A DNA stretch of 64,000 nucleotides, taken from Desulfuromonadales bacterium (lineage in GTDB: Bacteria; Desulfobacterota; Desulfuromonadia; Desulfuromonadales; BM103). Where the stretch lies: NCBI GenBank assembly GCA_030145205.1, contig JAQYVZ010000013.1:1-64000 (forward strand), written 5' to 3'. Each line of letters begins with the position of its first letter. Positions within the stretch are counted from its first letter, which is position 1. Shown here one piece after another: positions 12,565 to 27,305 of the stretch. The notes beneath the pieces are model-generated. The model ran no database searches. It saw only the letters and a program-made list of their open reading frames with translations, and was not told the origin of the DNA. Position numbers and translations under genes: made by a program.

Positions 12565-13881
12565 CTAACTTTCGACGATATCTCCCTCCAGACGCGTATC
12601 GAAGACCCGCTGACTTTTGCGTTCCGATCGCGGCAGAGTGCCGTAGTCAATCAGCTCAAGGTCTGCCGAAACCAGGAGCTGTTTTTTGATCTGATGAGTG
12701 CTCTCGTGAATCAACTCAGCATTGCGTGCCGTGGCCACACCTTCAGCCCGCTCCACAACAAGGCGCAGGTGATCACGCCCGGAGCTCTCTTCCCGGGTCA
12801 GGTGAATCTGGTATTCGGAACCGAGGCCGGGCACCTGCGACAAAATTGTATCGATGCTGGAGGGATAGATGTTGACGCCACGGAACTTGATGGTATCGTC
12901 GCTGCGACCCTTAATCCGGGAATGGCGCGGCAGCACGCTGCCGCAGTTGCAGCGCCCCGGCATGAGGCGGGTAATATCGCGGGTGCGGTAGCGGATCAGA
13001 GGCGATCCCTCCTTGCAAAGGGTGGTAACGACCATCTCGCCCCACTCACCATCCGGCACAGGCTGCAGAGTCTCCGGGTCGACAATTTCCAGGATATAAT
13101 AGTCGCCCCAGTAGTGGATGCAGTCATGCTCTGGACATTCAATGCCGGTTCCAGGGCCGTAAAGTTCAGTCAGGCCGGTGATGTCGAAGAGCTCAGCGCC
13201 GCCGAACAGTTCGGAAATTTTCTGGCGCATCGACACCGAGGAACGCTCCGAACCGTAGATGATCTTGTTGATGGCGATCTTGTCGGCGATGCCGCGTTTG
13301 TGGATTTCCTCCGCCATCAGCAGGGCCATCGACGCAGTCGAACAGAACACGGTCGATTGAAAATCGAGCAGGAACTGGATCTGCATGTCGATGTTGCCCG
13401 GTCCGACCGGCACCGCCATGGCGCCCAGCTTCTCGCAACCCAGTTGGAAACCGGCACCGGCTGTCCAGACCCCGTAGCCGACCGCGACCTGTACCCGGTC
13501 GAGCGGTGTAACACCCGCCATCTGGTAGCAGCGCGCGAAGAAGTCGGTCCAATCATCCAGGTCTTTCTGGGTGTAGCTCAGCACTTTGCGCTTGCCCGTG
13601 GTGCCGGAGGAGGCGTGAATCCGGGCGACCTGCTCAAACGGCACCGAGCGCAGCGGAAAGGGGTAACCTTCGCGCAGATCGTCGGCCGTGGTAAACGGCA
13701 GCTTCTGCAGATCGTCCAGCGAGGTGATGGTCTCCGGGGTGATGCCAGCGTCCTCGAAGTGCTGGCGATAGAAGCTCGAGCCCTCCCAGACATGGCGCAT
13801 GGTCCACTGCAGACCTTTGAGCTGATGCGCTTGCAATTCTTCTTCACTCTGGAAGGACGGCATGAAATTCTGTTCCTGCAT
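12565..13881 (-). CDS. paaK: Phenylacetate-CoA ligase (internal start within the livF frame)
   Basis: This ligase activates phenylacetate or a related aryl-acid with ATP and CoA through an acyl-AMP intermediate. From the ATG at 13881 it is 438 residues, the normal PaaK length. The AMP-binding loop ASSGTTGKRK, the segments YGSE and TGLTELYGPG, the hinge region RSRIKGRSDD and the C-terminal NIYPSSIDTILSQ block are all present. The context with IorAB, which makes aryl-acetyl-CoA from aryl-pyruvates, suggests the ligase works on the same acids, either reclaiming free acids or, in reverse, conserving energy. The upstream livF frame runs into it without a stop. Confidence 0.9.
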   Translation of the reverse strand: MQEQNFMPSFQSEEELQAHQLKGLQWTMRHVWEGSSFYRQHFEDAGITPETITSLDDLQKLPFTTADDLREGYPFPLRSVPFEQVARIHASSGTTGKRKVLSYTQKDLDDWTDFFARCYQMAGVTPLDRVQVAVGYGVWTAGAGFQLGCEKLGAMAVPVGPGNIDMQIQFLLDFQSTVFCSTASMALLMAEEIHKRGIADKIAINKIIYGSERSSVSMRQKISELFGGAELFDITGLTELYGPGTGIECPEHDCIHYWGDYYILEIVDPETLQPVPDGEWGEMVVTTLCKEGSPLIRYRTRDITRLMPGRCNCGSVLPRHSRIKGRSDDTIKFRGVNIYPSSIDTILSQVPGLGSEYQIHLTREESSGRDHLRLVVERAEGVATARNAELIHESTHQIKKQLLVSADLELIDYGTLPRSERKSQRVFDTRLEGDIVES

Positions 13882-14661
13882 GGCGGGTTTCTCCAGACGA
13901 ATGTTGGTCAAGCCGGCGGCACCAAGGCGACTGGCGGCCGGGCTGTTGTGACTGGCTGAGCCAAGAAAAGCGGCGCGCAGCGCCGGATCGTTGAGCAGAT
14001 CACTGCTCCGGCCCTGCTCGACAACCTGGCCGTTGGCCAGAAGGTAAGCATGGTCGGAAGCGGACAGGGCACGGGCGGCATTCTGCTCCACCAGCAGAAT
14101 CGTCGTGCCCGCTCTGGCCAGCTGTTGAATAATGGCGAAAATCTCATCGGTAATCAGCGGTGCCAGACCGAGACTTGGTTCATCGAGCAGCAACAGACGC
14201 GGCTTGGCCATCAGTGCCCGGCCCATGGCCAGCATCTGCTGTTCCCCCCCCGACAGGGTGCCTGCCAGTTGCTGACTGCGTTCGCGCAGTTTCGGGAAGC
14301 GCTCGAAAACCTCTTCGATCCGCTCAGTCTCATCCTGCCTGGAAAGGCGCAGCGGAATCCCGCCGAGCCGCAGGTTCTCCTGCACCGACAGGTGACCAAA
14401 CACCTCGCGCCCCTCGGGTGACAGGGAAAGACCGGCCCGGACCATACGAACCGGCGAACGACCGGTCACATTGTCACCATCGAGAAAAATCCGGCCACCG
14501 CTCGGCTTGACCAGGCCCATCACCGATTTGAGCAAAGTGCTCTTGCCCGCACCGTTGGCGCCGACCAATGCCACCGTGGCTCCAGCGGCAACCTCAAGAT
14601 CGACACCGAACAGGGCCTGGGCGGCGCCGTAATGAGCAGTGAGTCCTTCGATCTTCAACAT
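12565..14661 (-). CDS. LivF ATPase and phenylacetate-CoA ligase in one uninterrupted reading frame
   Basis: Residues 1 to about 237 are a complete LivF-type ABC ATPase: Walker A GANGAGKS, signature LSGGEQQM, Walker B LLLLDEPSLGLAP, and the family ending NDPALRAAFLG. Instead of a stop, about 23 extra residues (SASHNSPAASRLGAAGLTNI and on) lead straight into a full PaaK-type AMP-forming ligase. The 699-codon frame would give a 698-residue fusion. An internal ATG at 13881 with a GGAGA ribosome site 8 bp upstream matches the normal PaaK start, so a separate ligase can also be made. The ATG at 14661 overlaps the livG stop by one base (TGATG). Whether the product is a fusion, or LivF carries an unusual tail, cannot be told from sequence; a stop lost by mutation is the simplest origin. 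Confidence 0.8.
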   Translation of the reverse strand: MLKIEGLTAHYGAAQALFGVDLEVAAGATVALVGANGAGKSTLLKSVMGLVKPSGGRIFLDGDNVTGRSPVRMVRAGLSLSPEGREVFGHLSVQENLRLGGIPLRLSRQDETERIEEVFERFPKLRERSQQLAGTLSGGEQQMLAMGRALMAKPRLLLLDEPSLGLAPLITDEIFAIIQQLARAGTTILLVEQNAARALSASDHAYLLANGQVVEQGRSSDLLNDPALRAAFLGSASHNSPAASRLGAAGLTNIRLEKPAMQEQNFMPSFQSEEELQAHQLKGLQWTMRHVWEGSSFYRQHFEDAGITPETITSLDDLQKLPFTTADDLREGYPFPLRSVPFEQVARIHASSGTTGKRKVLSYTQKDLDDWTDFFARCYQMAGVTPLDRVQVAVGYGVWTAGAGFQLGCEKLGAMAVPVGPGNIDMQIQFLLDFQSTVFCSTASMALLMAEEIHKRGIADKIAINKIIYGSERSSVSMRQKISELFGGAELFDITGLTELYGPGTGIECPEHDCIHYWGDYYILEIVDPETLQPVPDGEWGEMVVTTLCKEGSPLIRYRTRDITRLMPGRCNCGSVLPRHSRIKGRSDDTIKFRGVNIYPSSIDTILSQVPGLGSEYQIHLTREESSGRDHLRLVVERAEGVATARNAELIHESTHQIKKQLLVSADLELIDYGTLPRSERKSQRVFDTRLEGDIVES

Positions 14662-15425
14662 CAGGCGGTGGCCTCCATCCGTCCCAGGTAGGCTTCGAGC
14701 ACCAGCGGATTGCGACAAACTTCGTCGGGTGTGCCGGCGGCAATACAGCGGCCGCTGTCGAGCACGACCACCTGGTCGGCGATCTCCATCACCAACTCCA
14801 TGTCGTGCTCCACCAGCAACAGAGTTTGTCCGGCCCGACGCAGACGCTTGAGCTGCTCGCCAACGGCAAAGGTCTCCTCGGCATTCAGGCCAGCGACCGG
14901 TTCGTCGAGCAGGATCAGTTCGGGGCGGCCGACCGTGGCCCGGGCCAGCTCCACCCGCTTCTTGTCGCCGTAAGCCAGAATAGCCGCTGGCCAACCAGCT
15001 TTGTCCGCCAATCCGTAATGATCGAGCGCCTCGAGAGCGCGCAGCTTGAGTTGACGCTCGCGGTGGCGCAGGTAAGGCAGGCGCAGCATCGCCATCACCA
15101 TCGAGCCACCCCCTTCGCAGGTCAGGCCGGTCAACACATTGTCAAGAACTGACAGGCGCGGGAAGAGCTTCAAATTCTGAAACGTGCGGGCGATGCCGCG
15201 CCGGGCGATCTCATGGGCCGGGCTGCCGACCAGTTCCTCGTCGAGAAACCGGATCGAGCCGCTGGTCGCAGTCAACACCCCGGTGATGCAGTTGATCATC
15301 GTGCTCTTACCGGCACCGTTCGGACCGATCAGCGCCGTAATCTGTCCGCGCGGCACCGTGAAGCCAACATCATCCAGAGCGGGCAGACCGCCAAACTGTT
15401 TGCACAGAGATTCAAGCTGCAGCAT
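14661..15425 (-). CDS. livG: Branched-chain amino acid ABC transporter ATPase LivG
   Basis: One of the two nucleotide-binding subunits of the Liv importer. The 254-residue protein has Walker [10 protein letters not shown], the LivG-specific [14 protein letters not shown] segment, and Walker [12 protein letters not shown] followed by the family's N-A-E sequence. In the signature region [14 protein letters not shown] replaces the usual LSYGQQRRLEIARA, still consistent with LivG. The ATG at 15425 has GGAGGCG before it and lies 14 bp inside the 3' end of livM, indicating translational coupling. Confidence 0.95.
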
Positions 15426-16410
15426 TTTTTCGCCTCCGCAGCGCCAGCCGGGTCCGTACCGTCTCAACCAGGCCAGTGATCAGTCCCTGAGGCAGGAACA
15501 TCAGCACCAGAATCAGGATACCGCCATGCACGAAATCCTTGTAGGTTTCAAAGATATCGACCCACTCCGGCAGCAGGGTAATCAGACCCGCCCCCACCAG
15601 AGAACCCCAGATCGATCCCATGCCGCCGATCACCACCATGATCGCCAAGTCGGTCGAGGCGAAGATATCGAAGGTGTCGGGGCTGATGAACTGGTAGCAG
15701 TGCGCGTAGAGGCTACCGGCCAGCGAGGCCAGCACCGCCGACAACACGAAGACCTTGATCTTGGCGCGACGCGTATTGACCCCGAGTGCGGCGGCGGCGA
15801 CTTCATCCCCGGCCAGCGCGGCCAGCCCACGCCCGACGCCGCTGCGTACCAGGTTCAGGCAGAGCAGCAGGCAGGCCAGGGCCGCCGTCCAGACCAGGTA
15901 ATGGAAACGGACTTCATTGTCAAAGGCGAACCCGCCGATCGACAGGGGGTCAATCCCGGCGAATCCGCTCGGGCCACCGGTCACATCGTCCCACTGCAGC
16001 AGGATCGTGTGAACGACGAAGCTGAAACCAAGAGTCGCCATCGCCAGGTAGTGGCCGGCCAGACGCAGGATCGGCAGGCCGACCGCGAGGGCAACCAGGC
16101 CAACCAACAGCGCCACCCCGACCATGGTCGGCCAGGCCGGCAGGCCGAAGTTGACCGTACCGATCGCCGAACCGTAAGCTCCAAGGGCGAAAAACGCGGC
16201 ATGGCCCAAAGAGATCTGCCCGGCAAAACCGATAAACAGGTTCAGACCGAGCACGATGATCACGTAGATGGCAATCAGGTTTGACAAGCCGAGAGTGTAG
16301 GGATTGTCCTGCAACAGCGGATAGACAGCGATCGCCAGGGTCAGGACCGTCACGGTCAGACCGGTGCGATGCAGAGAGATGAAATAAGCGATTTTCTCTT
16401 TAGCCGTCAT
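15412..16410 (-). CDS. livM: Branched-chain amino acid ABC transporter permease LivM
   Basis: This is an inner-membrane permease subunit of the Liv importer. Its 332 residues include about nine transmembrane helices and the conserved [12 protein letters not shown] motif, the [19 protein letters not shown] segment, and the cytoplasmic loop [26 protein letters not shown] that contacts the ATPases. It overlaps livG by 14 bp. A GC-rich hairpin repeat lies between it and iorB upstream. Confidence 0.95.
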
Positions 16411-16433
16411 TTATCTCAATAAACCTGAAGGGT

Positions 16434-16473
16434 TTCCCCCTCACCCTAACCCTCTCCCGCCAGGGGAGAGGGG
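16434..16473. repeat. GC-rich intergenic hairpin repeat
   Basis: CCCTCACCCTAACCCTCTCCC followed by GGGGAGAGGGG folds into a stem of eight or more base pairs. Sequences of this kind recur in intergenic regions of many proteobacteria. It sits in the 64-bp gap between iorB and livM, where it could protect or partly terminate the transcript. Confidence 0.6.
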
Positions 16474-16474
16474 A

Positions 16475-16975
16475 TTACCCGTTCATCCCCAGCTGGAAGG
16501 CTTCCAGATTTTGAGCGACGAACTTTTCTGGTGCCAAGGTGCGGATGGCGGCTTCACAGTCGGCCGCACTGCAGAACAAGGCGCCCTCTTTGATCGCCAG
16601 ACCAAGCAGAACGAGGTTGGCCAGCACCGGGTTGCCGAGGCGACGTGCCAGAGTCGACGCGTTGATGCGCACCCCCTTGCCCTTTTCCTTGGCATTGACC
16701 AGCAGGCTACCGTCATATTTCATCAGGTGCTTGTGCGCTGCCAGGTTCTTCTCCCAGAGCAGCAGGCCGACATCGGCCTGACCGGAGCGAATCATGGGAC
16801 TGGCAAAGTCACCCACCTTGATGGTCGACAGCACCGACCCACCGCGCTGGGCCATGCCGTGGGTTTCCGAGGTCAGCACCGGCAGGTCGCGGGCCACCGC
16901 CGTCTGGGCAATCACCCGGGTCAGGAAGAGCACACCCTGCCCACCGATACCGCTGACAATGATCTGTTGCTTCAT
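16475..16975 (-). CDS. iorB: Indolepyruvate:ferredoxin oxidoreductase, beta subunit
   Basis: Together with IorA it oxidatively decarboxylates aryl-pyruvates to aryl-acetyl-CoA with reduction of ferredoxin. The 166-residue protein is the gamma-domain of the 2-oxoacid oxidoreductase superfamily: IIVSGIGGQGVLFLTRVIAQ at the N-terminus, then TSETHGMAQRGGSVLSTIKVG, both diagnostic for the CoA-contacting subunit. The start overlaps the iorA stop by 4 bp, fixing the pair as a unit. It is slightly shorter than many IorB proteins. Confidence 0.93.
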   Translation of the reverse strand: MKQQIIVSGIGGQGVLFLTRVIAQTAVARDLPVLTSETHGMAQRGGSVLSTIKVGDFASPMIRSGQADVGLLLWEKNLAAHKHLMKYDGSLLVNAKEKGKGVRINASTLARRLGNPVLANLVLLGLAIKEGALFCSAADCEAAIRTLAPEKFVAQNLEAFQLGMNG

Positions 16976-18789
16976 GAGCGGGGCTCCTTGATGATGGCGT
17001 CAACCGGGCAGACCGGCACACAGGTGCCGCAGCCGACACAGCGATCCTGATTAACCGCCGCTTTACCGGTCCCCTCGTCCATAAACAGGGCCGGGCATTC
17101 AAATGCGTTGACACACTTACGGCAACTGATACAGCTCGCCTCGATGCTGACCCGGTACATCGTCTGCTGCTTGAGGACGCCCTTCTCCATCAGGCAGCCG
17201 TGCCGGGAGATCAGCACGGCGACGCCCCCCTCGGGGCCGCGGATGTGCTGGTCGGCCTGCTGCAGCAAGGCCTCGAAACCCTCTTTATCGTACGGATCGC
17301 AGACCTCCAGGAAATCAACACCGCTGGCCTTCACCAAAGGCTCAATCGCCACAGCCTTCGTCGGCATACCGCCGGCGGCGACGCCCATGTGCGGCACCGG
17401 CTGCCCGCCGGTCATGGCGGTGGTCGCATTATCCAGAATGACGACAATGATCCGCGCCTGCTGGATCACGGCGTTGACCAGGGCGGGAAGGCCGGAATGG
17501 AAGAAGGTGGAATCGCCGATGGTCACCACCACGGTCGGGAAGTCCTCACCTTGCGCATACGCCTGGTAGAAGCCGACGCCCTGGCTGATGCAGGCTCCCA
17601 TGCAATGCACCGTGTGCACAGCGCCCAGGTTCATGCCGAGGGTGTAACAACCGATGTCGGAGGGGAAAATCCCTTTCGGGAAACAACTCTTAATACTGTA
17701 GAAGGCCGCCCGGTGCGGACAACCCGGACAAAGTGACGGCCGTTGGCCACGCTGTTCCGCCGCCGGCTCGCCCGGCGCTTCCAGATCAAGGAAGGTCGCC
17801 AGAACCTGGTGAATAACATCCGGGGTCAGCTCTCCTTCGCGCGGCACAGCACCGCCCTGTTTGCCGACCGCACCGGGATGCGCCAGCTGCAGCTCGATTA
17901 CCGGGTAGGTCTCTTCCAGCACCAGAACCTGGTCGTAGTCGGCATGCAGCTGTTCAATCCATTCCGGGCTGAGCGGGTAAGGCATCACCACCTGGAACAG
18001 GTCGCACTGGCCGCTCAGGCCGAGCTCATCAAGCAAGTCGACCAGGTGGCCGTAGACAATGCCGGAGGCGACCAGCGCCACTTTTGGCTGGCTGCCGTTA
18101 CCGGACTGGAGGCGCGGCTGCACGGCCTCTTCCCGGGCTAGCTGCTCCAGTTTTTCATTGAGTTTGCGATGCAGGCCCGGCAGGAAGGGCGGCGTCGCTG
18201 CCCAGCGGGTCGGATCCTTTTCGAATTGGGCCTCCCGCTCCAGCGCGACCGGCGCACCAACCTCGACATTTTGCCGCGAATGACAAATGCGAGTGGTCGG
18301 CCGCAGCACGATATTCATCTCATACTGCTCGGAGAGCGCGTAAGCGGTCGCCACCATCTCGCCAGCTTCAGCTGGACTGGCCGGATCGAGCACCGGCACC
18401 CGTCCCTGCAGACAGAACAAGCGGGTGTCCTGTTCGTTCTGAGAACTGTGCGGGCCGGGATCATCAGCGACCACCGTCACCATGCCGCCCTTGACACCAA
18501 GATAGGCGGTCCGCATGAAGGGGTCGGCAGCAACGTTCAGACCGACCTGTTTCATGACTGCGACAGAACGCTTGCCAGTATAGCTGGCCGCCAGGGCCAC
18601 TTCGAAAGCGATCTTCTCATTGACCGACCATTCGATGTGCAACGGCTCGACCGCCTGGTCACGCCGGTCGATCATCGCCTGCAGCACCTCGGTGGAGGGC
18701 GTTCCCGGATAGGCGGCCGCGACCTGGCAGCCGGCCTCAATCAGCGCTTGGCCGATCGCTTCATTTCCCATCAACAACTGTTTGCTCAT
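16972..18789 (-). CDS. iorA: Indolepyruvate:ferredoxin oxidoreductase, alpha subunit
   Basis: The large IorA subunit holds thiamine diphosphate and two [4Fe-4S] clusters. Its N-terminal pyrimidine-binding domain begins GNEAIGQALIEAGCQVAAAYPGTPSTE. The thiamine-diphosphate site is TIGDSTFFHSGLPAL with downstream LDNATTAMTGGQP, as in IorA proteins. The last 60 residues are a ferredoxin domain with CISCRKC...CP and CVGCGTCVPVCP. Length 605 is normal. Its position between livH and livM in a transport operon suggests oxidation of imported aromatic (or branched) amino acids after transamination, or the reverse, reductive synthesis from aryl acids. Confidence 0.96.
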   Translation of the reverse strand: MSKQLLMGNEAIGQALIEAGCQVAAAYPGTPSTEVLQAMIDRRDQAVEPLHIEWSVNEKIAFEVALAASYTGKRSVAVMKQVGLNVAADPFMRTAYLGVKGGMVTVVADDPGPHSSQNEQDTRLFCLQGRVPVLDPASPAEAGEMVATAYALSEQYEMNIVLRPTTRICHSRQNVEVGAPVALEREAQFEKDPTRWAATPPFLPGLHRKLNEKLEQLAREEAVQPRLQSGNGSQPKVALVASGIVYGHLVDLLDELGLSGQCDLFQVVMPYPLSPEWIEQLHADYDQVLVLEETYPVIELQLAHPGAVGKQGGAVPREGELTPDVIHQVLATFLDLEAPGEPAAEQRGQRPSLCPGCPHRAAFYSIKSCFPKGIFPSDIGCYTLGMNLGAVHTVHCMGACISQGVGFYQAYAQGEDFPTVVVTIGDSTFFHSGLPALVNAVIQQARIIVVILDNATTAMTGGQPVPHMGVAAGGMPTKAVAIEPLVKASGVDFLEVCDPYDKEGFEALLQQADQHIRGPEGGVAVLISRHGCLMEKGVLKQQTMYRVSIEASCISCRKCVNAFECPALFMDEGTGKAAVNQDRCVGCGTCVPVCPVDAIIKEPRS

Positions 18790-18853
18790 AATCCCATTTC
18801 TATCGTGTTGTCACGCTGTTTCGCCGTCGCCTGCGGCAACAGCGTGCGTGCGC

Positions 18854-19717
18854 TTATTTCCCCAACAACCCTTTCGGACGAATGCATAGCACCAGCAACA
18901 AGACCACGAATGCCAGCACATCTTTGTAGGCACTCGACAGGTAACCGGCTGACAGCGACTCCAGCAAACCCAAACCGACTCCCCCGAGAATCGCCCCCGG
19001 GAAAGACCCGAAGCCACCGAGAATCGCAGCGGCAAAACCCTTCAACCCGAGCAACACGCCGACATCGTAGCTCAGGGTGGTAATCGGCGTCACCAACACA
19101 CCGGCCAAGCCGCCCAAGGCACCGGCCAAAGCGAAGCTGGTCAGCCGAACCCGCCCGGCCGGAATGCCGACCACATTGGCCGCAGTCGGATTGCTCGCGA
19201 CTGCCCGCATCGACAATCCGAGAGAGGTCCGATAAAAGAACCAGTTCAGCAGACCGATCGCAATAATCGACAAAGCCATGATCCAGAGCGCCTGCGGCAG
19301 CAGCGAAGCCCCGAAAATTCTGACCGGCTCGTCAGGCGTCAAGGGCGGCAGCGCCATGCGGTTCTTGCCCCACACCAGCTTCATCACGCCGCGGAGAACA
19401 ATTGACAGGCCCACGGTCATGAAAATCAGGACCAGTTCGTGATTGGACCGTGCCGGTCGCAGACCGAAGCGCTCGATCAGCATCGCCGCCAGAGCAACAC
19501 CGGCCACGGCCAGCAGCAGTCCGGGCACCATCGGCAGACCGATGGCGAACAGAGCCGAGAACATCAGCATTCCGCCCAGCGAGACAAAATCAACCTGGAC
19601 GAAGTTGACGATTCCCATGGTGTTGTGCACCACGCAGAAGCCGAGCGCAATCAGAGCGTAGATGGCACCGTTGGTCAGACCAGCGAAGATGAATTGGAGG
19701 ATATCCTGGGTTGCCAT
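18854..19717 (-). CDS. livH: Branched-chain amino acid ABC transporter permease LivH
   Basis: First gene of the liv-ior-paaK run and second permease subunit of the importer. The 287-residue protein starts MATQDILQFIFAGLTNGAIYALIALGF, typical of LivH, and contains NFVQVDFVSLGGM and the ATPase-contacting loop MRAVASNPTAANVVGIPAGRVRLTSFA. The ATG at 19717 is preferred because homology begins there; the frame extends to 19813 without conserved sequence. A 64-bp gap separates it from iorA. Confidence 0.94.
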   Translation of the reverse strand: MATQDILQFIFAGLTNGAIYALIALGFCVVHNTMGIVNFVQVDFVSLGGMLMFSALFAIGLPMVPGLLLAVAGVALAAMLIERFGLRPARSNHELVLIFMTVGLSIVLRGVMKLVWGKNRMALPPLTPDEPVRIFGASLLPQALWIMALSIIAIGLLNWFFYRTSLGLSMRAVASNPTAANVVGIPAGRVRLTSFALAGALGGLAGVLVTPITTLSYDVGVLLGLKGFAAAILGGFGSFPGAILGGVGLGLLESLSAGYLSSAYKDVLAFVVLLLVLCIRPKGLLGK

Positions 19718-19785
19718 TCTGCTGTCCTGAAAGTCCAGACCAACACCCGCAAAGCGGGATGCAGACCGGATGAGGTCAAACCGTG

Positions 19786-19813
19786 AGATTAACCCATCAT
19801 TCCGTCTTTGCAA
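19786..19813 (-). promoter_or_regulatory. Possible promoter of the liv-ior-paaK operon
   Basis: On the minus strand TTGCAA and TAATCT are 16 bp apart, about 70 bp before livH. A small hairpin (CCCGC-TTT-GCGGG) lies in the leader. Match to consensus is moderate. Confidence 0.35.
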
Positions 19814-19817
19814 AGTC

Positions 19818-20123
19818 TTAATTCGGCGTGATTTTGTGAGATATCGGGAGACAATGAAAAGTTACGGGAGGTGGTGCGTCCCCTCCAGCACCCGGCCGCC
19901 GGCAACCTTGGCGAGGCCTGAACTGATGATCATCGCCGCCCGAAAAATCATCGCCAACCACTTCGACCTGCGGGTCATAGCTCCAGCGGCGATCTTGCAG
20001 TTTGTCGGGGTTACGGCCAATGACCCTGACCCGCCAGCCAGCCTCAACCAGTCGCGGCACCAGGCGCGCCCCGATATAGCCGGTTGCCCCGAGAACAGCT
20101 ATTGGACGATCATCTCGTGACAT
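19818..20123 (-). pseudogene. Truncated NAD(P)-binding (SDR/epimerase-like) gene fragment
   Basis: The first 56 residues read as a Rossmann-fold N-terminus: a Gly-rich GATGYIGARLVPRLVEAGW nucleotide loop, then VRVIGRNPDKL and VEVVGDD. After that the frame turns into low-quality sequence (repeated Arg/Pro/Gly) and stops at 101 codons, far short of the 300-500 residues of such proteins. Only the 5' end of a gene therefore remains, ended by deletion or frameshift. Confidence 0.65.
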
Positions 20124-20301
20124 GATTTTCTTTCAAGCTGAACACCTGTTTTCAATCTCTACGTGAGCAGTCTAGCAGAAATCACGCAGCTTTGTCTGTT
20201 GGCTCAAAGCGAACACCCCGCATTGCATGGAGTTGCCATTGCCCGCAGACAGCTCCCTTGCTAGAATGGGAAAGATACTTATCTTCATGAAAAGGAACAC
20301 T

Positions 20302-23300
20302 ATGGCTTTCAACCCAGATATCTGGTCCCGATACGAATACGAAGGAATCCCCATCTATATCCGCAGTGACCACCCGGTATGGTTTGTCCCGAACCAAGCG
20401 GGCGACCAACTGCTTCAGGAAATGTCGAACGGCAAATCGGCACCGGACGGGCGCCGCAGCAGCTACTTTCTGGAGCGCCTGCCCGACCCGCCGCCGGGCC
20501 GGTTTCCCGGACGGGGGCAACTGCTCGACAACACCCGGCTGGAGGAGCTCTGGTTTCACATCACCAACCGCTGCAATCTGACCTGTCGCCATTGCCTGTT
20601 TGCCTCATCACCGGAAGATGCGGCTGAGCTCGAGGCTTCGGTGATCCTGCAACGAGCGGCCGAAGCCCATGAACATGGCTGCCGGATTTTCTCCCTGACC
20701 GGTGGCGAGCCGCTGGTGCATCGTCAGTTTGACGAAATCATGTCAGGCTTACTGGCCCTGCCGGACAGTCGGGTCGTGATTCTGACCAACGGCCTGCGGC
20801 TTGAACAGGTTTTCAGTCACAAACAATGGGACTGGAGCCGCATCCACCTGCAGGTCAGCGTCGATGGTCTGGAGAAACGCCACGACCAGATTCGTGGACC
20901 GGGGTCCTTCCGCAAGCTACGGGAGCAGTTGCTCTGGCTACAACAACTGCAGATGCCGTTCACCGTGTCAATGTGTGTGGAGCGCAGCAACCTCGGTGAG
21001 ATGAGCGGGGTCGTCGATTTTGCCGCCGACTGCGGCGCGAGCGGCCTGCATTTCATGTGGTATTTCATCCGCGGCCGGGGCGACGCCGATCATTTCGCAA
21101 CCCCCGACGAGATTTTCGAGCAGCTCAAGCTGGCCAGCCAGCGCGCCGAATCACGCGACATCGGCATTGACAACCTCGACAGTCTGCGCACCCAAATTTT
21201 CGCCCCGAGCGGCACCTATCATGACGGCAGCACCAGCGGCTGGGAAGCCCTGGCAATCGGCCCGGACGGCCAACTCTACCCCTCTGCCGCGCTGGTCGGC
21301 ATGAAGCAACTCGCCACCCCGCTCGACCAGGGGCTCTACCAGGCCTGGCAGGAAAGCACCGTTCTCCAAAACCTCCGCTCCTCCTCGGTGGTGCACAGCA
21401 ATTCACCACTGCGCTTCTACCTCGGCGGCGGCGACTCCGATCACAGCTTCACACACTGCGGCGAGTTTGTCGGCTGCGACCCCTACCTGCCGCTTTACGA
21501 AAAGTCGATGCTCTGGCTGATCAGCCGCGAAGCACTTCAGCAGCAGGCGGACGGACCGCCGCGGTTGCGCCTGAAGATGGGTGACATCCTCGAATCGTGT
21601 GGAAGCCATGGCAATGTCGCCCTGGTGCACAGCAACTGCCTGCTCTCCCTCGCTGATCGCGACAGCCGCAAGGTGGTCAAGGATTTTTACTCCGACGCCG
21701 CCACCCGCCAGAATGACGATATTCTCAACCCGGTCTGCTACGACGAAGCGATGATCAGCCACATCCCGCAGGAGTTCCGCTTCCGTGGCTACGGCTGTGG
21801 CAGCCCAGTGCTGGACGCAGCCATCCAGCCAGGGGAAACAGTGATCGATCTGGGCAGCGGCCGCGGCATCGAATGTTTCATCGCGGCCAAACAGACGGGA
21901 CGGGACGGCCTGGTTTTCGGTATCGACATGCTCGATGACATGCTGACAATTGCCCGCTCCGGAAGCCAGGCGGTCAGCCGCAACCTCGGCTACGACAACC
22001 TTGCCTTTCGCAAGGGCTACCTGGAAGAGCTGCCGATGGAGGATGACTCTGCCGATCTGATTTTATCGAATTGCGTCATGAACCTGTCGATGCACAAGCG
22101 CCGAGCCTTTGCCGAAATTTTTCGATCGCTCAAACAGGGTGGCCGCCTGGTCATGTCGGACGTCGTCTGTGAGACGGAGTCTCCCGCCGGCATCAAGAAT
22201 GACGAAACCCTGCGGGGTGAGTGCATCGGCGGCGCCCTGACCCAGAAAGATCTGATCGGCATTCTGGATGAAACCGGCTTCACCGCGATCCGTCTGTTGA
22301 AACGCTTTCCCTACCGCACCGTGCAGGGGCATCCCTTTTACTCTCTCACCTTTGAAGCCCGCAAGCCGACCCTGTCGGAAATGACCCAGGTAGTCTACCG
22401 GGGACCAGGCATGGCGATCATTCTGCCAGACGGTAGCAGCTTACACCGCGGCATGGTTCAATCCCTGCCGCGCCAGTTGGCCGAGAGTCTTGGCGAGCAG
22501 GTCTTCCTGCTGGATGAAGCCGGTGCGGTCACCAACCTGGAACTGCAGGATGGCTGCGCCTGCGCCCTGCCCCCCGAAGCACCACCGACTGAGAATGCAC
22601 TGTCGGAGAGCGCGGAACCGGCCCGTCATGCCAGCGGCTGCATGGTTTGCGGAGCATCTCTGGTCTATGCAACCCAGGAGCAGGTAGCTGCCTGCACCTA
22701 CTGCGACGAGACGCACCACACCGCTGCACTCTGTGAGCAGGGGCATTTTGTCTGCGACCGCTGCCATGCCCAGGACGCACTGCAGGTCATTGAACATCTC
22801 TGCCTGGTCACCCGGGAGACCGACATGCTGGTCCTGCTCGAGCAGATCCGCCAGCATCCGCTGGTGCCGACCAACGGCCCTGAGCATCACGGTCTGGTGC
22901 CGGGCATCATCCTGGCAACCTACCGGAACCTGGGAGGGGGAATTGACGAGGAGCTGATCCGCGCCGGCATTCGCCGCGGTGCACAGGTCATCGGAGGGAG
23001 TTGTGCTTATGTGGGCATCTGCGGGGCCGCAACCGGTGTCGGCGTCGCCTTCAGCCTGCTGCTGGAAGCAAACCCGCTGAAACCGACCGAACGCCACCTG
23101 CTGCAATCGGCCATGCGGGACGCCATCGCGGAGATTGCTGACCAGGAAGCCGCACGCTGCTGCCAGCGCGATTGCCTGCTGGCCCTGCAGGCCGCCGCCC
23201 GTATCTCACCACGACTGCTGCCGATTCCTCTGCAAGCCGGCGCAGGAATCCGCTGTACGCAGCAGCACAAGAACCGCGAGTGCCAGGGACAGGCCTGTCC

Positions 23301-23313
23301 GCTCTGGCCCTGA
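20302..23313 (+). CDS. Radical SAM / ArsM-like methyltransferase / DUF5714-like triple-domain protein
   Basis: The 1003-residue protein joins three enzymes or modules. Residues 1-80 (W..YEYEGIPIYIRSDHPVWFVPN) resemble the small N-terminal domain of some peptide-modifying radical SAM proteins. A radical SAM barrel follows with the [4Fe-4S] motif CNLTCRHC (Cys91, 95, 98), then TGGEPLVH and VDGLEKRHDQIRG. Residues about 470-680 are a class I methyltransferase with DLGSGRGIECFIAAK, YGCGSPV before it and ECIGGAL after it, which recalls arsenite methyltransferase ArsM. From about 780 to the end is a Cys-rich domain (CMVCGASL, CTYC, HFVCDRCH, later GGSCAYVGICGAATG) matching DUF5714 as I know it. Start 20302 is chosen for AAAGGA 6 bp upstream. 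It stands alone between a dead gene and a convergent c-di-GMP gene. Substrate unknown. Confidence 0.85.
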   Translation: MAFNPDIWSRYEYEGIPIYIRSDHPVWFVPNQAGDQLLQEMSNGKSAPDGRRSSYFLERLPDPPPGRFPGRGQLLDNTRLEELWFHITNRCNLTCRHCLFASSPEDAAELEASVILQRAAEAHEHGCRIFSLTGGEPLVHRQFDEIMSGLLALPDSRVVILTNGLRLEQVFSHKQWDWSRIHLQVSVDGLEKRHDQIRGPGSFRKLREQLLWLQQLQMPFTVSMCVERSNLGEMSGVVDFAADCGASGLHFMWYFIRGRGDADHFATPDEIFEQLKLASQRAESRDIGIDNLDSLRTQIFAPSGTYHDGSTSGWEALAIGPDGQLYPSAALVGMKQLATPLDQGLYQAWQESTVLQNLRSSSVVHSNSPLRFYLGGGDSDHSFTHCGEFVGCDPYLPLYEKSMLWLISREALQQQADGPPRLRLKMGDILESCGSHGNVALVHSNCLLSLADRDSRKVVKDFYSDAATRQNDDILNPVCYDEAMISHIPQEFRFRGYGCGSPVLDAAIQPGETVIDLGSGRGIECFIAAKQTGRDGLVFGIDMLDDMLTIARSGSQAVSRNLGYDNLAFRKGYLEELPMEDDSADLILSNCVMNLSMHKRRAFAEIFRSLKQGGRLVMSDVVCETESPAGIKNDETLRGECIGGALTQKDLIGILDETGFTAIRLLKRFPYRTVQGHPFYSLTFEARKPTLSEMTQVVYRGPGMAIILPDGSSLHRGMVQSLPRQLAESLGEQVFLLDEAGAVTNLELQDGCACALPPEAPPTENALSESAEPARHASGCMVCGASLVYATQEQVAACTYCDETHHTAALCEQGHFVCDRCHAQDALQVIEHLCLVTRETDMLVLLEQIRQHPLVPTNGPEHHGLVPGIILATYRNLGGGIDEELIRAGIRRGAQVIGGSCAYVGICGAATGVGVAFSLLLEANPLKPTERHLLQSAMRDAIAEIADQEAARCCQRDCLLALQAAARISPRLLPIPLQAGAGIRCTQQHKNRECQGQACPLWP

Positions 23314-25611: not shown

Positions 25612-26478
25612 TTATGCGTCTGGCAGAATCTGCTGATAGACCTCTTCGACCACCGATCGGTAGTCTTTCATATCCAGCAGCGTCTCCTTGCGTGACAGAC
25701 ATTTCGGAATCTCCGCGTCGAAGGGAATGCTGGCCACCTGTCTGCCACCGTGCGTGACGATGGCCAATTCTACTTCCGCGGCCAGAGCCGGGTTCAGACC
25801 ACCCTTGTTGATGACAACCCGATGGGGTAACCGGAACTTTTCAAGCAACTTGGCCAGCCGCCGATAATCAGACAGGCCACTCAGGCTTTCCTCTAGCACA
25901 ACCAGGACCAGTTGCACCCCGGTCAGGCTGGAAATGGCCTGGCAGCTGGTACCGGGCGGGCCGTCAATCACCAGAGTCGCAATCTGTTTTTCTGCCGCCA
26001 GCGTTCTGGCATCTTCCCGGATATTGGCAATCAGCTTGCCGCTGTTGTCCTCCCCCGGGATCAGGTCGGCATGCACCATGTAGCCATTCCTGATTTGACT
26101 GACATATTTGCGTCCGGACATGTGCGGCACCATGCTGACCGCCTGGTTGGGGCACACCCAGGCACAGGCGGCACAGCCTTCACATTCGTCATTAACCGCA
26201 TACACCCCTGTGGCTTGCTGATCAACAGCACTGAAGGCACAGATCTCCTTGCATTGGCCGCACGCGGCACAGCTCTCCGCCGCAATTGTTGCGACATCCA
26301 TCCCGTAATAGTCGGCCTCGGTCAACCGTTGCGGCGACAGGAGAATCGGCAGATTGGAGGCGTTGACATCAGCATCAACGGCAATCACCTCCGGAAACAA
26401 TTTCAGCAAGGCTGCAGTCAACGAGGTCTTGCCTGCGCCGCCCTTGCCACTCATCACCGCCACCTGATGGAGTTTCAT
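25612..26478 (-). CDS. MinD-family ATPase with inserted ferredoxin domain, second of a pair
   Basis: A 288-residue P-loop ATPase of the MinD/Mrp group with a bacterial ferredoxin domain inside. The deviant Walker A is GKGGAGKTS (residues 12-20), the second motif DADVNASN, and the switch DGPPGTSCQAI. Between residues 65 and 120 lie CAACGQCKEIC and CEGCAACAWVCP, ligands for two [4Fe-4S] clusters. Such ATPases come in pairs and act in iron-sulphur handling or in the Orp complex described in Desulfovibrio. It overlaps its twin upstream by 4 bp. After its stop the same frame stays open for about 43 protein-like codons without a start. Confidence 0.92.
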   Translation of the reverse strand: MKLHQVAVMSGKGGAGKTSLTAALLKLFPEVIAVDADVNASNLPILLSPQRLTEADYYGMDVATIAAESCAACGQCKEICAFSAVDQQATGVYAVNDECEGCAACAWVCPNQAVSMVPHMSGRKYVSQIRNGYMVHADLIPGEDNSGKLIANIREDARTLAAEKQIATLVIDGPPGTSCQAISSLTGVQLVLVVLEESLSGLSDYRRLAKLLEKFRLPHRVVINKGGLNPALAAEVELAIVTHGGRQVASIPFDAEIPKCLSRKETLLDMKDYRSVVEEVYQQILPDA

Positions 26479-27305
26479 GACTGCACCTCCGCGGCCAGCG
26501 CCTGCTGCAGGAGCGTGTAGACCACTGGACTGCTTTTACTGAGAATTTCGCCATCCAGCAGGATGCGGTGGTAATCGCTGTCCAGAGGAAGCGTCGCTGC
26601 AAGGGCGTAGCCCCGTTTTGCCAGGATTTTTTTCAATGGAGCATTCTCCTGCGACTTGTTGGCGACAACCACGATCGGTTTCTGCATCCCCTCAACAATC
26701 TCCAGGGTCTGCAACATGTCATGCAGACCGAAGGGGGTCGGCTCAACCACCAGCACCACCAGGTCCGCCGGCTTGATCGCCGCCACGGCAGCACAGGAAT
26801 TTCCCGGCGGTCCATCGATGACCTGATGACCGCCGTTCTGCTCCAGGTGCCGGACGATATCCTGAATCAACGCCGTACCACGGGTTGAGCCGATCTTGAG
26901 ATCACCGATAACGGCGCGCGCCCCGGTCTGCGTCGAAAAACCGGTGCGCACCTCTCCAATGGCAACCGGCTGATAGCTGATCGCTCCTTCCGGACAAACT
27001 TCGCAGCAGAGATTGCAGCTGTGGCACAGCGTATCGGTCAGGTAAACTGTGTCGATAATTTTGTAGAGAGCATGAAAACGGCATTCGCGCGTGCAGAGCC
27101 CACAGCCGCTACAAACACTGGCATCGATAACCGGCTGCTTCTGAAAGACCTGGCGGACATGCCAATCCTCTGGCTGGAGAAAATATTCGCCATTGGGTGC
27201 ATCCACATCCAGATCGTAGTAGTCGGCCTCAAAAATGTGCGCCAGGCAGGTGGCAATCGTGGTCTTGCCCGCACCGCCCTTGCCGCTGACAACGGAAATA
27301 ATCAT
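26475..27305 (-). CDS. MinD-family ATPase with inserted ferredoxin domain, first of a pair
   Basis: The 276-residue partner of the following ATPase, with the same plan: Walker A GKGGAGKTT (9-17), DLDVDAPNGEYFL, then CSGCGLCTREC and CHSCNLCCEVCP for two [4Fe-4S] clusters, and DGPPGNSCAAVAAI. Sequence identity to its twin is clear but moderate, an old duplication retained as a heterodimer in this family. It follows the NifX-like gene by 84 bp and overlaps the next ATPase by 4 bp (ATGA), so the three form an operon. Confidence 0.93.
   Translation of the reverse strand: MIISVVSGKGGAGKTTIATCLAHIFEADYYDLDVDAPNGEYFLQPEDWHVRQVFQKQPVIDASVCSGCGLCTRECRFHALYKIIDTVYLTDTLCHSCNLCCEVCPEGAISYQPVAIGEVRTGFSTQTGARAVIGDLKIGSTRGTALIQDIVRHLEQNGGHQVIDGPPGNSCAAVAAIKPADLVVLVVEPTPFGLHDMLQTLEIVEGMQKPIVVVANKSQENAPLKKILAKRGYALAATLPLDSDYHRILLDGEILSKSSPVVYTLLQQALAAEVQS

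Follow-up and report, generated by a model that had tools for sequence, protein, structure and literature searches.

Described ArsM, ArsS, and DUF5714 systems

The first steps of arsenosugar synthesis in Synechocystis are carried out by ArsM and ArsS (PMC8552651), the latter of which adenosylates arsenic in oxo-arsenosugar synthesis according to PMC12159101, which cites Cheng 2021. In CmArsM, arsenic is bound by Cys72, Cys174, and Cys224 (PMC3877260). A further precedent for a radical SAM/ArsM pair is given by ArsL-ArsM of arsinothricin synthesis (PMC8552651). ArsM joined to a Cys-rich or redox domain is found in the selenoprotein families NF041536 (ArsM/DUF2284) and NF041537 (ArsM/AhpD), which, judged by family name and length, are devoid of a radical SAM domain. 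A Cys-rich ribbon combined with DUF5714 occurs in the MbdU double selenoprotein (NF045648) and in stand-alone DUF5714 proteins, in which no radical SAM or ArsM units were matched.

The window analyzed here, a stretch of 64,000 nucleotides from a Desulfuromonadales bacterium, contains a gene for a fusion protein that resembles each of these systems in part. With the SsArsM/SsArsS pair it has in common the ArsM motifs and a radical SAM enzyme, neighbors of the VTT, MerA-like, DUF3047, and TIGR04282/TIGR04283 types, and a distribution complementary to that of ArsS; in contrast to this pair, it is one polypeptide with an additional DUF5714, is solitary in the window organism, and has a radical SAM unit scoring far below the ArsS cut-off. 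Compared with ArsL and ArsM by gene layout, the combination of radical SAM and ArsM, which would form C-As bonds in series, is alike, but ArsL and ArsM are encoded by separate genes accompanied by the ArsQ permease, whereas glycosyltransferases and redox proteins are the neighbors of the fusion. Unlike the selenoproteins of NF041536 and NF041537, far below whose cut-offs it scores, the fusion has cysteine in place of selenocysteine. A literature search revealed neither a characterized protein of identical architecture nor a paper describing this architecture. The gene encodes a conserved fusion related to ArsM/ArsS that probably serves organoarsenical synthesis.

Gene and domain organization

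The open frame extends over 1003 codons without a stop. An alternative in-frame ATG is situated upstream at 20227, but the start at 20302 is favored due to the putative ribosome-binding site, the promoter-like site, and the N-termini of most orthologues.

20239..20267, + strand: promoter-like site TTGCCC-17-TAGAAT with extended -10 (sigma-70-like), from a consensus scan only
20291..20298, + strand: putative, purine-rich ribosome-binding site AAAGGAAC 5' of the ATG at 20302, predicted from the sequence
20302..23313, + strand: radical SAM/ArsM-type methyltransferase/DUF5714 fusion, 1003 aa (open frame, Pfam, and dozens of orthologues of the same architecture)

The initial annotation had proposed a three-part protein with radical SAM, ArsM-like, and DUF5714-like domains, and all three are found by Pfam above the curated cut-offs. 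An assembly artefact or chance fusion is ruled out by the occurrence of the same architecture as complete or nearly complete open frames in dozens of genomes, and a selenoprotein reading by the lack of an in-frame TGA in the window gene.

No local operon was found around the gene in the window; the flanking genes are located on the opposite strand, and thus the fusion gene is solitary in the window organism. Adjacent to it is a short frame (19818-20123, minus strand) whose start reads as an NAD(P)-binding epimerase and whose remainder looks unrelated, so that it resembles a gene remnant. It is followed by a cluster (12565-19813, minus strand) that reads as a LivH/LivM/LivG/LivF branched-chain-type ABC transporter, a phenylacetate-CoA ligase-like protein, and indolepyruvate oxidoreductase subunits, which suggests uptake and oxidation of aryl acids. 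On the other side, two adjacent MinD/Mrp-type ATPases (25612-27305, minus strand) each carry an inserted ferredoxin-like Cys motif.

Radical SAM unit and N-terminal module

20302..20529, + strand: N-terminal beta-beta-beta-alpha-alpha module, residues 1-76 (AlphaFold2 secondary structure)
20560..21006, + strand: radical SAM core, residues 87-235 (PF04055, E 2e-18; Foldseek matches SkfB, SuiB, PqqE, and anSMEcpe)
20572..20595, + strand: CxxxCxxC [4Fe-4S] motif C91-C95-C98, invariant in alignments of 22 and 53 sequences
21214..21651, + strand: C-terminal part of the radical SAM unit (alignment) with a presumably SPASM-like layout

Like the CxxxCxxC motif, the GGEP (GGE) motif is invariant in both alignments (22 and 53 members). 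GGGDxDHS and DPY are conserved in the C-terminal part of the unit, where C433 and C446, situated in the linker, are the only invariant cysteines. Auxiliary-cluster cysteines of the SPASM type were sought in the radical SAM unit and are absent, YPSAAL occurring where a YPC-type motif is expected. Direct membership in ArsS is ruled out, as the fusion reaches 48.7 bits with the ArsS model TIGR04167, far under the cut-off of 300 bits; it is the best match in its own genome, and its similarity to ArsS is confined to the core. Since the unit is not ArsS by score and is devoid of the SPASM cysteines, its radical chemistry may differ, and so may the transferred group, as in ArsL.

As the radical SAM unit has its best PDB fold matches in SkfB and SuiB and the beta3-alpha layout at the N-terminus is RRE-like, the protein might be read as a RiPP-type maturase that acts on a precursor peptide and subsequently methylates it. 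We consider this highly improbable. The N-terminal module may be likened to PqqD/RRE-type modules in layout only, a PqqD/RRE domain was not matched by Pfam, and the ArsM motifs would be left unexplained. Moreover, a search for precursor peptides within 1.2 kb of the fusion loci yielded no broadly conserved small ORF; those common to many loci are restricted to closely related groups and resemble shadow frames of neighboring genes. Due to the missing flanking ORF and the missing RRE/PqqD match, the peptide-maturase reading was set aside.

ArsM-type methyltransferase unit

21667..22572, + strand: full-length ArsM-type arsenite methyltransferase unit, residues 456-757 (phmmer 5evj 3.7e-34, CmArsM 2e-32; Foldseek)
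21736..21738, + strand: C479, aligned with the fourth (N-terminal) of the cysteines conserved in ArsM, present in most members and His in a divergent clade
21796..21798, + strand: C499, aligned with CmArsM Cys72 (As ligand; PMC3877260)
22072..22074, + strand: C591, aligned with CmArsM Cys174 (As ligand; PMC3877260)
22222..22224, + strand: C641, aligned with CmArsM Cys224 (As ligand; PMC3877260)

Methyltransf_31, a class I methyltransferase domain, was matched by Pfam at residues 509-659 (E 1.3e-28, above the curated cut-off). The ArsM-like motifs GCGSPV and ECIGGAL, pointed out in the initial annotation, are present, and in an exact alignment the cysteines of GCGSPV (C499), SNCV (C591), and GECIGGAL (C641) correspond to Cys72, Cys174, and Cys224 of CmArsM. 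All three are invariant in the alignments of 22 and 53 members. Over the middle of the fusion, arsenite methyltransferases are likewise the best-scoring NCBIfam models, under their curated cut-offs; in case of the family PRK11873/NF008823, 214.9 bits were obtained versus a cut-off of 263 bits. With the confident full-length AlphaFold2 model (pLDDT 86.5, pTM 0.72), the top 13 Foldseek matches in the PDB are As(III) methyltransferases (ArsM/AS3MT) with E-values down to 1e-19, followed by SkfB and, lower down, SuiB, PqqE, and anSMEcpe, which match the radical SAM unit.

Cys-rich ribbon and DUF5714

22639..23310, + strand: Cys-rich ribbon and DUF5714, residues 780-1003 (PF18978, alignments, AlphaFold2)

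DUF5714 (PF18978) was matched at residues 830-1002 (E 8e-54, 182.2 bits versus a gathering score of 26.2). Thirteen cysteines of the C-terminal domain are invariant in the alignments (C780, 783, 798, 801, 811, 818, 821, 901, 953, 954, 985, 994, and 999). Ribbon and DUF5714 modeled alone (22630-23310) gave a confident AlphaFold2 model (pLDDT 94, pTM 0.91) with no fold relatives in the PDB (best E 2.4), and profile searches revealed no convincing sequence relatives of DUF5714 in the PDB; the modeled domain possibly represents an unsolved fold. MbdU (NF045648) is the best NCBIfam model over the C-terminal end, with 119.4 bits versus a cut-off of 600 and no selenocysteine in the fusion. No paper on DUF5714 was found in the literature searched, and loci of stand-alone DUF5714 genes have no constant neighbor. 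In one of them (L061:7269-7991, minus strand), the gene lies beside genes that read as FeoB-like, FeoA/DtxR-like, and heavy-metal-associated domain proteins. Candidate roles of DUF5714 are arsenic or metal capture, thiol recycling, and cluster or metal supply.

Distribution and conservation of the fusion

The fusion was detected in 42 of the 136 genomes searched in the same order, mostly as full-length open frames, a count that includes genomes with the gene cut by contig ends or frame breaks. Within the order, most members are 52-62% identical to the query, with 80% in the genus and approximately 45% in a divergent clade; over all complete or nearly complete copies, in the order and beyond, identity ranges from 44 to 80%. 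Scanning 84,980 species genomes revealed 230 relatives of the query. Incomplete MAGs are among the genomes searched. The best 80 of these 230 were taken further and belong to the Desulfuromonadales, Desulfobacterales, Syntrophobacterales, Geobacter-like bacteria, Sulfurospirillum, and some MAGs labeled as Acidobacteria, Eisenbacteria, Myxococcales, and Chitinispirillum. None of the plasmid records covered 80% of the fusion protein.

In the divergent clade (loci L057, L058, L059, and L060), His stands at the position of C479 and Asp at that of C907. Both clades are present in three genomes (G026, G035, and G075). Neighbors in the divergent clade include an aquaporin, CobW, and a MoaA-like radical SAM protein (L057) and SsuA-type ABC genes (L058). 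In case of L075 and L076, the fusion is distributed over two or three frames, representing either a true split or frame errors of the MAGs.

Genomic context

A recurrent cassette surrounds the fusion in Sulfurospirillum and Geobacter-type bacteria, consisting of rhodanese, CCG/Fe-S, DUF3047, VTT (TVP38), MerA-like, MTR-kinase-like, and TIGR04282/TIGR04283 proteins. Two glycosyltransferases were found near the fusion in 23 of 79 loci, VTT/TVP38 in 19, rhodanese in 13, an MTR-kinase-like phosphotransferase in 10, and Fe-S/CCG and DUF3047 proteins, grouped together by loose clustering, in 23; in most loci, glycosyltransferases are absent nearby. The cassette glycosyltransferases tested score above the cut-offs of TIGR04283 (232.7 bits, cut-off 182) and TIGR04282 (183.2 bits, cut-off 134), for which "arsenosugar biosynthesis glycosyltransferase" is the NCBIfam family label and not functional proof for the cassette proteins. 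In the Sulfurospirillum loci L126-L136, a fused TIGR04282-TIGR04283 glycosyltransferase adjoins the MTR-kinase-like phosphotransferase near the fusion gene.

A scan of 102 operon-like neighbors revealed the cassette families again, together with MerA-like reductases, three CobW proteins, five NMT1/SsuA-type binding proteins, and four aquaglyceroporins (MIP), whose genes adjoin the fusion in four of the scanned loci. In several organisms, aquaglyceroporins serve as carriers of As(III).

In view of the MerA-like, CobW, and rhodanese neighbors, the similarity of DUF5714 to the MbdU "metal-binding" selenoprotein family, and the stand-alone DUF5714 gene beside FeoB-like and FeoA/DtxR-like genes, the ArsM-like and Cys-rich domains might act on a metal-bound cofactor or on a metal or metalloid other than arsenic (Sb, Se, Te, Hg). 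This is improbable, as the three As-binding cysteines coincide exactly with those of ArsM and the partners also occur in ArsS clusters.

In the window, no TIGR04282/TIGR04283 glycosyltransferases adjoin the fusion. The homologues of the window genome are located on two other contigs (C46 and C150) in unrelated surroundings. They may be generic, as most genomes of the order have comparable single copies. Elsewhere, this genome contains a VTT-MerA gene at the end of contig C28, a DUF3047 gene on contig C52, and, on a further contig, an Acr3 arsenite pump. The earlier statement that neither a precursor peptide nor ars genes are nearby holds for the window but not for the relatives, in which the gene is often situated among arsenosugar-type genes.

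The solitary gene, the complete ArsM unit, and the Acr3 pump on another contig would also suit arsenite methylation for detoxification, with radical SAM unit and DUF5714 providing redox support or reduced thiols or clusters and no C-As bond being formed by the radical SAM unit. Simple ArsM proteins, however, manage without such a partner, the catalytic motifs of the radical SAM unit are invariant, and the glycosyltransferase cassette and the exclusion of ArsS described below would remain unexplained; there is thus little likelihood of a mere detoxification enzyme.

Relation to ArsS

Among the 136 genomes of the order, 53 contain ArsS and 42 the fusion, but both occur together in 2 only (Fisher 8e-9; 7e-9 in genomes that are at least 90% complete). 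The exclusion persists upon permutation within families (p 0.001) and is non-significant upon stratification within genera (p 0.076). In fusion genomes of other groups, ArsS is present in 2 of 43. Furthermore, TIGR04282 occurs mainly where ArsS or the fusion is present (p 6e-6). Both observations, the exclusion and this co-occurrence, fit a functional replacement.

Sixteen loci were picked for ArsS (TIGR04167), and in 9 of them a partner of the fusion cassette is located in the ArsS neighborhood. Identities between partners in ArsS loci and in the fusion cassette amount to 47% for DUF3047, 47% for TIGR04282, and 40% for the fused TIGR04282-83. One ArsS locus contains both VTT and MerA-like partners, each 73% identical to the versions of the fusion cassette, and a long MerA-type gene occurs in five ArsS loci.

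An arsenic substrate combined with another radical SAM product, such as 3-amino-3-carboxypropyl transfer as in ArsL or a different organoarsenical, is less probable, though the most plausible of the alternatives. It would agree with the ArsL-ArsM precedent, with a radical SAM unit that is not ArsS by score, and with the absence of glycosyltransferases from most loci, but the common partners, glycosyltransferases among them, and the exclusion pattern point to ArsS, and no conserved ArsQ-type efflux permease was found among the recurrent neighbors.

Proposed function

Based on the domains, the conserved catalytic and As-binding residues, the common cassette, and the mutual exclusion with ArsS, we favor, with moderate confidence, the interpretation that the fusion is a one-polypeptide replacement for ArsM and ArsS at the entry to organoarsenical synthesis of the arsenosugar type. 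That arsenic is the substrate, in which order the steps proceed, and that adenosyl is the group moved is what we infer from these observations.

As(III) would be captured by the Cys-rich C-terminal domain and/or directly by C499, C591, and C641, and two SAM-dependent methylations in the ArsM unit would convert it to dimethylarsenite. Another SAM would then be cleaved by the radical SAM unit with its [4Fe-4S] cluster on C91/C95/C98, and the 5'-deoxyadenosyl radical would be added to the arsenic of dimethylarsenite. The third C-As bond formed in this way would yield 5'-deoxy-5'-dimethylarsinoyl-adenosine or its trivalent form, an arsenosugar precursor. In cassette-bearing genomes, TIGR04282/TIGR04283 and the MTR-kinase-like protein might produce sugar derivatives, action of an MTR kinase on dimethylarsinoyl-ribose being conceivable by chemical analogy to its known reaction, and MerA-like and Fe-S proteins might keep arsenic reduced.

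The domains assigned initially are confirmed, and the accompanying idea that a single substrate undergoes methylation and C-radical chemistry in succession agrees with the findings, the chemistry itself being deduced. Of the substrates considered at that stage (organometalloid, cofactor, or peptide), an organometalloid has gained strong support from the As-binding cysteines, the As(III) methyltransferase folds, the arsenosugar-type cassette, and the exclusion of ArsS, and a peptide has little, as no conserved small ORF was found next to the gene. It is tempting to speculate, though tentatively, that this one protein performs all C-As chemistry of an arsenosugar-type pathway of anaerobes, with a radical SAM unit that is not ArsS and with DUF5714 binding As(III) and passing it between the active sites, and thus represents a second, independent organoarsenic route.

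If our interpretation is right, the fusion would be an alternative, one-protein entry route to arsenosugar-type synthesis, common among anaerobic bacteria that reduce sulfur and metals and missed by arsS searches. It would add another radical SAM way to C-As bonds and give DUF5714 a first role, and it would become directly testable where the complex organoarsenicals of anoxic sediments originate.
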